Source: Bittarella massiliensis (ex Durand et al. 2017)
Lineage (GTDB): Bacteria > Bacillota > Clostridia > Oscillospirales > Ruminococcaceae
Direction of reading: 5' to 3'
Assembly (NCBI RefSeq): GCF_001486165.1
Contig: NZ_LN908977.1
Coordinates: 996,177 to 1,060,176, forward strand
DNA length: 64,000 nt
Made by a program: the position numbers and the translations under genes. Under the pieces are notes generated by a model. That model was not told the origin of the DNA, did no database searches, and worked only from the letters and a program-made list of their open reading frames with translations. This document shows, one piece after another, positions 33,657 through 35,718 of the stretch (its first letter is position 1; each line of letters begins with the position of its first letter).

Positions 33657-33732
33657 GCTACTGTGGCTCAGTTGGTAGAGCAGCGCACTCGTAATGCGCA
33701 GGCCGCCGGTTCGAGTCCGGCCAGTAGCTCCA
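33657..33732 (+). tRNA. tRNA-Thr (anticodon CGT)
   Basis: 76-base tRNA with encoded CCA. Acceptor GCTACTG/CAGTAGC, D arm GGCTCAGTTGGTAGAGC, anticodon stem GCGCA/TGCGC with CGT in the loop, and T arm GGTTCGAGTCC. It reads ACG. The AT-rich foreign gene begins just downstream. Confidence 0.95.
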
Positions 33733-33735
33733 TAG

Positions 33736-33781
33736 AAAACACGGTATACTTTCTGATTAGGGATTGTATACCGTGTTTTTT
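33736..33781 (+). terminator. Terminator after tRNA-Thr
   Basis: Fourteen-base stem AAAACACGGTATAC/GTATACCGTGTTTT followed by TT, 4 bases past the CCA. AT-rich, like the gene that follows. Confidence 0.8.
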
Positions 33782-33846
33782 GGTAAAAAGGAGGAGTAAA
33801 AAGCCCACTTTTAAGTAATAAAAACTATATTAAAAAGGATGATACC

Positions 33847-35124
33847 ATGCCTGATCAATTAGAACTACTCTCAATTCATACGGAACAAAAAGATATTACT
33901 CTTGCACAACTAAAGGAAGATGTTGATGCAAACGATATCATTACTAATCCTGATTATCAAAGAAAATATGTATATGATGATATCCGTGCTTCTAGACTAA
34001 TCGAGTCAATTCTTCTCGGCATTCCAATTCCGGTAATCTATCTTTGCGAAGAGGAGGACGGTACCCTATCCGTAATTGACGGTCAACAGCGAATCGTTTC
34101 TTTCGTGCGCTATTTGAAAAATGAATTTTCTCTAAATAAGCTGACAAAATTGACAGATATAAATGGCCTTTATTATAGAGATCTTGAAAAAAGAATCCAG
34201 CGATTGCTAAAAAGTAAAACACTAAAGGCAATCACAATAAACAAAGATTCTAAAGAATTGAAGTATGAAATTTTTTCGCGTTTAAATCTAGGTGCTATCA
34301 TGCTAAAAGACCAAGAAGTTCGAAATTGTATCTATCGTGGCAACTTTAACAACATGCTAAAAGATATTGCTCAAACCAATAAAAATTTACACGTTCTTTT
34401 TCATGATGAGAATAAACGCAGTGCTTATGAAGAGCGCATCCTTCGCTTTTTTGCATTGCGCAATTATCTTGAACTCCGTGGAACTTTTAAATGGGTTATG
34501 AGTTCTTATATGGAGCAACATCAAAATGATGATGAAATTTTAATTTCAAAACTTAAAAGTCAATACAACACCTTAATTGACGTCATTCAGCAAATTCTCG
34601 GTGAAAACGCATTTTTTTCGCTGTGTAAAGACAAACGGAAAAAATTTAACGGCGCAGTTTATGATTCGATAATTATCCCATTCTCCTATTTTCCTAGCAG
34701 AGTCTTAATATCTCACGCTGATGAGCTACGTATACAGATTAACTGTTTGAAAGAAACCAATAGTGAGTACCAAAACAACACCTATGTAGGAACAAATGCT
34801 GGTCCGAGAGTACGTGGTCGAATCGAGCAGGTGATGAAAATTATTAGTGACATAGTTTCAGCAGAAGTCCAGCCTGATAGATACCGCTACTTTCATAAAT
34901 CTATTAAGGAGCATCTCTTTTATCCTGGATACAAATGCAGTTATTGTGGAAATATCATTCTTTCCCTTGATGACTGCGAAATGGATCACATTATTCCCTA
35001 CGCAAAAGGGGGATCTACAACTCTTGAAAATGTTCAACTTTTACATAGAAGCTGTAATAGAAACAAAAAAGACAGAATTGTACTAGGAGGAGTTAATGAG
35101 CAAGATGATAACAGCGAATATTGA
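33847..35124 (+). CDS. DUF262-HNH endonuclease-like protein, foreign
   Basis: 425-residue cytoplasmic protein. Residues about 15-150 form a DUF262 (ParB/GmrS-like) domain with PDYQRKYVYDD at 35-45 and the nucleotide-type motif VIDGQQRIVSF at 77-87. A helical middle follows, and residues 364-410 form an HNH nuclease finger: C364/C367, the catalytic pair D380-H381 in EMDHIIPYAKGG, then HRSCN at 400-404. The two-domain plan is like GmrSD type IV restriction and other DUF262 nucleases, but with a classical HNH instead of DUF1524. Base composition is near 36% GC against about 68% around it, so it is recently acquired. It stands alone between tRNA-Thr and a bidirectional terminator. AAAGGATG lies 7 bases before the ATG. 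Defence is inference. Confidence 0.85.
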   Translation: MPDQLELLSIHTEQKDITLAQLKEDVDANDIITNPDYQRKYVYDDIRASRLIESILLGIPIPVIYLCEEEDGTLSVIDGQQRIVSFVRYLKNEFSLNKLTKLTDINGLYYRDLEKRIQRLLKSKTLKAITINKDSKELKYEIFSRLNLGAIMLKDQEVRNCIYRGNFNNMLKDIAQTNKNLHVLFHDENKRSAYEERILRFFALRNYLELRGTFKWVMSSYMEQHQNDDEILISKLKSQYNTLIDVIQQILGENAFFSLCKDKRKKFNGAVYDSIIIPFSYFPSRVLISHADELRIQINCLKETNSEYQNNTYVGTNAGPRVRGRIEQVMKIISDIVSAEVQPDRYRYFHKSIKEHLFYPGYKCSYCGNIILSLDDCEMDHIIPYAKGGSTTLENVQLLHRSCNRNKKDRIVLGGVNEQDDNSEY

Positions 35125-35169
35125 GTAGGTTTCAGACGGAACAATTATCAACCTTATAAAATTTGTTGC

Positions 35170-35215
35170 AAAAGGAGTGGGGGGAGAGCGTTTGCGCTCT
35201 CCCCCCACTCCTTTT
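35170..35215. terminator. Bidirectional terminator, 21-bp perfect stem
   Basis: AAAAGGAGTGGGGGGAGAGC and its complement ending in CTTTT pair around the loop TTTG. It ends the plus-strand DUF262-HNH gene and the minus-strand gene at 35233, and marks the right edge of AT-rich DNA. Confidence 0.9.
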
Positions 35216-35232: not shown

Positions 35233-35718
35233 TCAGCGCCCTTCCACCAGTTCGATGGCTTCCTTCCCGCTCAGCCGCTCGATGCGCAGTTCCACCACGC
35301 AGACCTGGTCGAAGAGCCGCTCGATCTCCCGCCGGCGGCCCTCCGGCTGCTGGGGGGAGTACTTGGCCGCCAGCCGTTCCAGGGCGGCCCGCTTCTCCCC
35401 CTCCTCCCGCAGCACCCGCGCCCTGCCAAAGGCGATGGCGCTGCGAAAATAGGTGGTGTACTCCTGGGGCACCACCCGGTCCTGGTCGACGACGCAGAAG
35501 GAGACCCGCTCCTCCCTGGCAATGGCGTCCAGCTTCTGCCCGACCGGGGCGCAGTGAAAGTAGATCCGTTCCCCGTCAAAGACATAGCTCAGGGGCACGG
35601 CATAGGGGTAGCCGTCCTCCCCCACCACCGCCAGCACCCCGGAGGTCCCCCGGCGCAAAACGGCCTCGCAGCCCTCTCTGGAAAGGGCCTGCCGCTGTCG
35701 GCGCATCTCTCGGGCCAC
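35233..35718 (-). CDS. Pyridoxamine 5'-phosphate oxidase family protein (Nim-like)
   Basis: 161-residue split-barrel flavoprotein. The pattern GVLAVVGEDGYPYAVPLSYVFDGERIYFHCAPVG and VSFCVVDQDRVVP is that of the PNPOx/NimA-type family that binds FMN and in some cases reduces nitroimidazoles. Activity here is unknown. It starts with GTG at 35718, with GGGGAG 9 bases upstream inside the end of the upstream gene, so translation is probably coupled. Second gene of a two-gene unit, ended by the 21-bp terminator. Confidence 0.85.
   Translation of the reverse strand: MAREMRRQRQALSREGCEAVLRRGTSGVLAVVGEDGYPYAVPLSYVFDGERIYFHCAPVGQKLDAIAREERVSFCVVDQDRVVPQEYTTYFRSAIAFGRARVLREEGEKRAALERLAAKYSPQQPEGRRREIERLFDQVCVVELRIERLSGKEAIELVEGR

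Follow-up and report, generated by a model that had tools for sequence, protein, structure and literature searches.

We found that Bittarella massiliensis carries a stand-alone, foreign-looking gene for a 425-aa protein in which a DUF262 domain is fused to an HNH nuclease domain. We consider it reasonably probable that this gene is an acquired, self-contained, GmrSD-like NTP-gated nuclease directed against foreign (probably modified) DNA. The evidence consists of the domains and conserved motifs of the protein, constraint in close relatives, similarity in fold to BrxU, patchy spread across phyla, frequent restriction-modification (RM) neighborhoods in the family, and no recurrent partner. The NTP gating, the DNA target, the dependence on modification and the antiphage function are what we infer.

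The gene lies in a 64-kb stretch of the genome (NZ_LN908977.1 996,177-1,060,176) that was analyzed as a whole and is called the window. Coordinates below are window positions. The features of the locus are as follows:

33657-33732, plus strand: tRNA-Thr (CGT), identified with ARAGORN; the native left-hand landmark of the acquired segment
33733-35169, strand not applicable: AT-rich acquired segment, from the tRNA to the GC-rich hairpin; 34.7% GC
33736-33779, plus strand: terminator-like hairpin 3' of the tRNA, with perfect 14-bp arms (33736-33749/33766-33779) and a T run; identified as an inverted repeat
33847-35124, plus strand: DUF262-HNH gene, 425 aa, ATG start; identified from the ORF, Pfam and relatives
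33871-34845, plus strand: DUF262 (ParB/Srx-like) domain and helical region, residues 9-333, the NsnA-like/phrog_2598-like core; identified from PADLOC, the phrog match and the structure model
34078-34092, plus strand: nucleotide-pocket motif D78-G-Q-Q-R82, present in 58/58 aligned members
34936-35076, plus strand: HNH nuclease domain, residues 364-410; identified from Pfam PF01844, conservation and structural matches to Cas9 and Gme
35170-35215, strand not applicable: GC-rich perfect hairpin with 21-bp arms (35170-35190/35195-35215) and a 4-nt loop; identified as an inverted repeat

The base composition of the gene supports horizontal acquisition. The first-pass annotation of this DNA had described a 425-residue AT-rich gene of foreign origin between tRNA-Thr and a 21-bp perfect hairpin, and both the layout and the foreign origin held up. 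The GC fraction is 0.351 for the gene (35.1%; ORF 33847-35124) and 0.347 for the segment 33733-35169, compared to 0.649 for the whole window, so that the 68% GC given earlier for the surroundings has to be lowered to 64.9%. Among 1-kb bins (n=64), that of the gene (0.356) is a clear outlier and the next lowest is at 0.538; the bin containing the start of the gene is at 0.557. GC fractions at codon positions 1, 2 and 3 of the gene are 0.47, 0.29 and 0.30. The third-position value contrasts with 0.85-0.94 in four adjoining genes. There is no other large ORF within the segment, and no promoter-like site was found between tRNA-Thr and the gene; AAGGA is present just upstream of the ATG. The gene is the sole PF03235 match in the B. 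massiliensis genome. Searching the genome with the DNA of the segment gave no second copy; the sole match was of the palindromic hairpin to itself on the opposite strand. That hairpin (35170-35215) probably terminates the minus-strand gene at 35233-35718 and could serve from either side.

The segment was probably acquired 3' of tRNA-Thr, without marks of tRNA-directed integration. We compared the best-matching tRNA-Thr stretches from 14 relatives of the bacterial family. The protein was matched in none of the 14 (in one of them the stretch reaches just 233 bp past the tRNA). One of the two upstream neighbors in the window was still present in 4/14, and the downstream neighbors were matched in none. 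These stretches point to gain of the segment downstream of the tRNA. The first-pass annotation had seen no second tRNA 3' end downstream, and this was borne out: the window has no second copy at up to 3 mismatches, and the rest of the genome has one other such site (2 mismatches, about 0.5 Mb distant). Nor was an integrase gene found in the AT-rich segment. The segment differs in both respects from a tRNA-site integrative element. Adjacency to a tRNA was not supported as a meaningful trait and is not general in the family: a tRNA is present in the stretches of 7/80 relatives (described below) and within 1 kb of the gene in 5/80. Because just 5/80 have a tRNA that close, tRNA-Thr is probably incidental, judging from the sequences compared. 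We rejected a tRNA-targeted integrative element on these grounds (no tRNA-end repeat, no integrase, relatives not linked to tRNAs). A 14-bp near-repeat at 33875/35131 (13/14) was rejected as an insertion boundary because one end falls inside the gene.

HNH domains are frequent in homing enzymes, and the window gene is a lone insertion. These two points favor a stand-alone homing endonuclease whose own insertion placed it behind tRNA-Thr. This reading is already disfavored and we give it almost no weight, since few relatives are within 1 kb of a tRNA, the DUF262 motifs are invariant, and RM-type genes are more frequent near family members than in control stretches.

The domain assignments of the first-pass annotation, DUF262 fused with HNH rather than with DUF1524, agreed with profile searches. 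Pfam matched GmrSD_N/DUF262 (PF03235) at residues 28-163 (E 5e-25) and HNH (PF01844) at residues 364-410 (E 1e-13), both exceeding the Pfam cut-offs, and there was no match to DUF1524 (PF07510) up to E 0.1. The motif residues were also as described: DGQQR at 78-82, and C364, C367, D380-H381 and C403 in the HNH domain, which also has H400. Candidate catalytic residues are D380-H381, N395 and N404, and candidate metal ligands are C364, C367, H400 and C403.

We aligned the window protein with 57 of the 78 relatives analyzed, picked by length (400-475 aa), to give 58 rows. Q38-R39, DGQQR (78-82) and F143/N147 (FxxxN) were present in 58/58 members; an excerpt of PMC11411939 names QR, DGQQR and FxxxN as the GmrS motifs. 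The fully invariant positions are P35, Q38, R39, D78-R82, F143, N147, E157, R159, N160 and H381. In the HNH domain, H381 was found in 58/58, D380 and N395 each in 57/58, and N404 in 56/58. C367, H400 and C403 were each substituted in 12/58 members. The same number of members (12/58) has S, L and F at 367, 400 and 403, perhaps marking one HNH branch without the structural metal.

Among PADLOC defense profiles, the core of the window protein is far nearer Menshen NsnA than the BrxU-like or SspE models. The best profile was NsnA (PDLC03877), with 232.6 bits over residues 9-337, followed by PD-T4-2_A (132.7 bits) and the type II enzyme profile REase_II (82.5 bits). HEC-05 and SspE gave at most 22.8 bits; HEC-05 is BrxU, as named in a part of PMC11411939. 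The phage family phrog_2598 spans residues 9-333 of the protein (246.6 bits).

The predicted structure resembles BrxU. An AlphaFold model made from the 58-row alignment had a mean pLDDT of 87.7 and a pTM of 0.64. Foldseek against the PDB gave two chains at E <0.001, both BrxU (1.4e-4 and 3.4e-4), and then weaker matches to ParB-family proteins, SspE and the Gme HNH nicking enzyme. The N-terminal part of the model resembled ParB proteins and SspE, and the C-terminal part the HNH domains of Gme and Cas9. With VIA-align, BrxU (7p9k_A) aligned across residues 12-337 with Z 9.4 and an rmsd of 11.5, indicating that the parts are displaced. SspE aligned across residues 6-152 (Z 8.0, rmsd 3.8), ParB gave Z 7-8, and Cas9 HNH domains gave Z 6-7.6 across about 350-419. 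The Z values are moderate and the domains agree with Pfam, and we take the modeled fold to be BrxU/SspE-like.

Like GmrSD, BrxU and the ParB_n-HNH variants, the window protein is a single chain in which DUF262 (with QR, DGQQR and FxxxN) is followed by a helical linker and a C-terminal His-Me finger nuclease, and its best PDB match is BrxU. Unlike GmrSD and BrxU, it has a PF01844 HNH domain instead of DUF1524, and an NsnA-type core. It is also shorter, at 425 aa compared to 557-580 aa in the solved BrxU chains listed. The protein is thus GmrSD-like in the broad sense (DUF262 motifs, a His-Me finger DH-N-N and a BrxU/SspE-like fold), and is not a GmrSD protein in the strict Pfam sense, which includes DUF1524.

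Relatives of the protein are widespread and patchily distributed. Scans with the window protein as lone query gave no match in the genome-contig or viral-contig collections. Searches of whole genomes recovered full-length relatives from the same class but from orders other than that of B. massiliensis (G983, G841 and G870, 58-60% identity; G948, 56%) and distant relatives in G505 and G730. In the same order, 1/393 other genomes had a close match over both domains (55-62%), and this was a broken copy (G373). The alignment of relatives was then used as query on data with one genome per species, in which 277 of 517 candidate stretches encoded relatives. We kept the 80 best of the 277, in each of which the match reaches from DUF262 into the HNH domain. 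Two (L101 and L121) have no complete main ORF, leaving 78 for analysis.

Identity to the window protein is 42-60% for 20 of the 80, mostly from Clostridia and Bacilli and including Treponema (L097) and Bacteroidales (L106); loci L088-L103 are 49-60% identical over both domains. The remaining kept relatives (32-37% identical) span many bacterial phyla and include some archaea; metagenome assemblies are the source of many. The gene was lower in GC than its flanks in 68/78 relatives. Searches with tblastn found relatives in 257 phage records (4 with at least 80% query coverage) and in 191 plasmid records (33 with at least 80% query coverage), all below 60% identity. ORFs at L104 and L105 (about 42% identity) are some 120 residues longer (546-547 aa) and have apparent type I RM genes nearby. 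A 783-aa open frame at G378:C2:162096-163541 has two separate DUF262-like matches.

In a tree of residues 9-333, the window protein is sister to a protein from Christensenellaceae (SH-aLRT 97). This pair nests in a set of 18 rows (support 98) that mixes Bacillota, Spirochaetota and Bacteroidota. The tree has 91 of the 137 rows collected; seven near-copies or very distant rows were excluded and the HNH rows were partly sampled at random. The mixed lineages and the patchy occurrence (1/393 other genomes of the same order, many phyla overall), the latter anticipated by the first-pass annotation, form the pattern expected of a gene that moves between lineages. The window gene belongs to a very widespread family of nucleases that likely function in defense against viruses.

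Selection appears to maintain the family. We tried nine pairs; dN/dS was 0.03-0.17 in seven, and the other two were saturated, one being the window gene and L089. The pairs outside the window gene thus indicate purifying selection on DUF262-HNH genes. Some copies are broken: that in G373 has two frame changes and internal stops, and in L093 the ORF is split in two. Broken copies are as expected for dispensable genes. They also fit a reading in which the window gene is non-functional cargo heading for decay, as does the lack of a promoter-like site between tRNA-Thr and the gene. We consider decay very improbable: the window copy is intact and bears the motifs of the family, and the seven close pairs elsewhere are constrained. 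By inspection, the broken copy in G373 (L050 8517-9630, G373:C4) is close to an apparent integrated element that carries ParB-like, DNA methylase and coupling-protein-like genes.

We compared the neighborhoods of the 78 relatives to those of control stretches (40 sought, 28 obtained, 27 used). An RM-type gene was present within ~6 kb on either side in 31/78 relatives and in 2/27 controls (one-sided Fisher p about 0.001), a comparison that serves as a guide because rows are related, contigs are sometimes short, and the controls are from Bacillota only while the relatives come from many phyla. An RM-type gene on the same strand was within 200 bp in 14/78, and none was found near the gene in 47/78. 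The RM neighbors are of several types (I, IIG/MmeI and III). We found no fixed partner, since the most frequent neighbor family (by BLAST clusters) occurs at no more than 12/78 loci. For the family scans we took the nearest neighbor on each side if it had 150 aa or more and lay no further than 1.5 kb away (127 proteins), and considered the 25 commonest families per scan.

By BLAST clusters and inspection, the order of genes at L106 is hsdM, hsdS, the DUF262-HNH gene and hsdR, and at L103 and L104 hsdR is followed by the DUF262-HNH gene. A passage in PMC4619093 gives type I RM genes as frequent neighbors of GmrSD. L095 (185-7242) has HsdR, a small gene, a 698-aa ATPase (candidate defense family PDC-S06) and the DUF262-HNH gene in series. 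Also by inspection, L099 has an excisionase-like gene and an integrase near the DUF262-HNH gene, and L096 a mobilization-like gene.

The surroundings of the window gene are different and metabolic in character. The six flanking proteins include, by Pfam, a GDSL hydrolase, a PNP-oxidase, a nucleoside deoxyribosyltransferase, a RibD_C protein and IleRS, and one had no match. None of the six was a defense protein, a methyltransferase, or like NsnB or NsnC. A defense island inside the window was therefore rejected for want of Pfam support among these proteins. The nearest relatives (L088-L092) likewise have no RM-type gene nearby. The predicted defense context thus stood for the family (31/78 compared to 2/27) and not for the window gene or L088-L092. 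The patterns that had been named as refuting the defense idea, universal conservation at one locus in the genus or a consistent non-defense context, were seen in part: in one other genus, 3/3 genomes retain the DUF262-HNH gene beside the same 567-589-aa gene, where it could have a settled role.

It is conceivable that the window gene is an orphaned or accessory restriction subunit that requires a methyltransferase or a host RM complex, in the way of DUF262-HNH genes paired with EcoRI-type methyltransferases. In Enterococcus faecium such a gene adjoins an EcoRI-family methyltransferase, in G303 it adjoins a gene that looks like a methyltransferase (by inspection), and an RM-type gene is close by in the 14 relatives described above. 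These type II-like enzymes have the same domain order as the window protein. However, the methyltransferase-paired branch is set apart by a long, fully supported branch, the window gene has no methyltransferase found next to it, and REase_II gives 303 bits with the E. faecium member compared to 82.5 with the window protein. In addition, the RM neighbors are of several types and were not found at 47/78 loci. We therefore doubt strongly that the window protein is such a subunit.

We return to the reading we favor, a self-contained restriction nuclease. We propose that the DUF262 (ParB/Srx-fold) domain would bind NTP and probably hydrolyze it, that DUF262 and the helical middle would together recognize something particular to invading DNA (a modified base or backbone being most likely), and that the HNH domain at the C terminus, once released by this recognition, would nick or cut the DNA concerned. 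This order is modeled on GmrSD, BrxU, SspE and TgvAB, as described in parts of PMC10952713 and PMC11411939. We propose a modified target (the logic of type IV systems) because a methyltransferase that could protect self DNA was not found next to the gene, and self DNA would best be spared if the target were a modification that the host lacks. TgvAB, according to the same portion of PMC11411939, is a DUF262 nuclease system within a type I operon, as in relatives such as L106; unlike TgvAB, which consists of two proteins with DUF1524 in a type I RM operon, the window gene stands alone.

Single-gene systems of this general kind have been described. Sections of PMC12373910 report ParB_n fused to HNH or DUF1524 in 12 enterobacterial groups. 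Of 15 groups tested there, five beyond the first three were apparently active on T-even phages, and the tested single-gene ParB_n-nuclease systems behave as type IV restriction. Single-gene ParB-fold/HNH systems also appear in PMC12704722, and ParB-HNH is listed as a BREX auxiliary in part of PMC12839542. The one-gene ParB-fold/HNH kind is thus already recognized, and the distinguishing mark of the window gene is its Menshen NsnA-like core. If our reading is correct, the gene represents a small, portable restriction nuclease, free of partners and of a methyltransferase, with a range from Clostridia to archaea.

The Nsn names (NsnA, NsnB and NsnC) are those of Menshen. Like Menshen, the window protein has a match to PADLOC NsnA (residues 9-337); unlike Menshen, it has an HNH domain fused to the core and no NsnB- or NsnC-like protein among its six flanking neighbors. 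A locus from Bacillota (L081, 4775-7971) has NsnA, NsnB and NsnC in series, a Menshen-type arrangement, and its NsnA scores 476.9 bits to the profile compared to 232.6 for the window protein. According to part of PMC10952713, Menshen includes a DUF262 protein. Menshen domain variants are the subject of a 2025 paper (PMC12065111). A literature search on NsnA gave no relevant paper among the matches listed.

We compared the HNH-fused family to relatives that lack the HNH domain, defined by motif pattern and found largely on viral contigs (n=47 loci). Among the 47, L210, L211, L213 and L214 are very distant, and in three of these the tblastn match extends to residue 404-405; the four may encode a variant nuclease. 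In 45/47 loci, a gene of at least 100 aa was present within 150 bp downstream, most at 20 bp or less or overlapping. The product matched the Pfam RiboL-PSP HEPN family in 40/45; the other five were two AAA ATPases, two 5-FTHF cyclo-ligases and one other. The string R-[NDHSA]-x3-H, the motif of active HEPN RNases, was present in 39/40 HEPN partners and also in one non-HEPN protein.

A profile of the HEPN partners recovered 39/40 of them in cross-validation. It matched at 0/95 HNH-fused loci, that is, the window, the 80 kept relatives and 14 further loci, among them those of the distant methyltransferase-paired branch, and it matched none of the window ORFs of at least 60 aa. The window gene has a core family in common with the pairs of DUF262 and RiboL-PSP/MAE HEPN genes, but no HEPN partner and an HNH domain in cis. 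Labeling the tree as fused or non-fused required 3 changes, compared to 29.8 after shuffling, which demonstrates clustering only. With HEPN genes downstream at most HNH-less loci and at none of the 95 fused loci, the fused HNH domain seems to substitute for the separate HEPN enzyme, suggesting that the effectors of the DUF262 core are exchangeable; the contrast comes from differently sampled collections, the fused set being mostly genomes and the HNH-less set mostly viral contigs.

These findings bear on the main rival to the restriction reading, a triggered, suicidal nuclease. An NsnA-like infection sensor would normally trigger a separate effector (a HEPN RNase, or NsnB and NsnC), and in the window protein the fused HNH domain would cut both host and phage DNA, leading to abortive infection and not to clean restriction. 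The position of NsnA as top defense profile, well ahead of REase_II, would fit, as would the complementary HEPN and HNH counts, the complete NsnA-NsnB-NsnC locus and the lack of a methyltransferase found beside the window gene to guard self DNA. However, the model most resembles a restriction enzyme, BrxU, the single-gene ParB_n-nuclease systems reported in the cited part of PMC12373910 act as type IV restriction, and the two sets of loci were sampled differently. Abortive infection is a serious alternative that we nevertheless regard as unlikely, and we keep restriction as the preferred reading.

It is possible, and we put this forward tentatively, that the NsnA/DUF262 sensor core is a plug-in module that works with a HEPN RNase in trans, with an ATPase and NsnC in trans (Menshen), or with an HNH DNase in cis. 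The window gene would be the one-gene, DNA-cutting version, elsewhere planted in or beside several types of restriction operon as a back-up nuclease. The complementarity of fused HNH and separate HEPN would then offer a direct route to asking what the shared DUF262 core senses. HEPN genes "in operon with ParB" were already noted in 2013, in a passage of PMC3710099. We also observed that the 3948-bp Escherichia coli plasmid pLR-27_3 (L018, 52-1755) carries a DUF262 gene together with a HEPN gene and so holds the related module in a minimal two-gene form.
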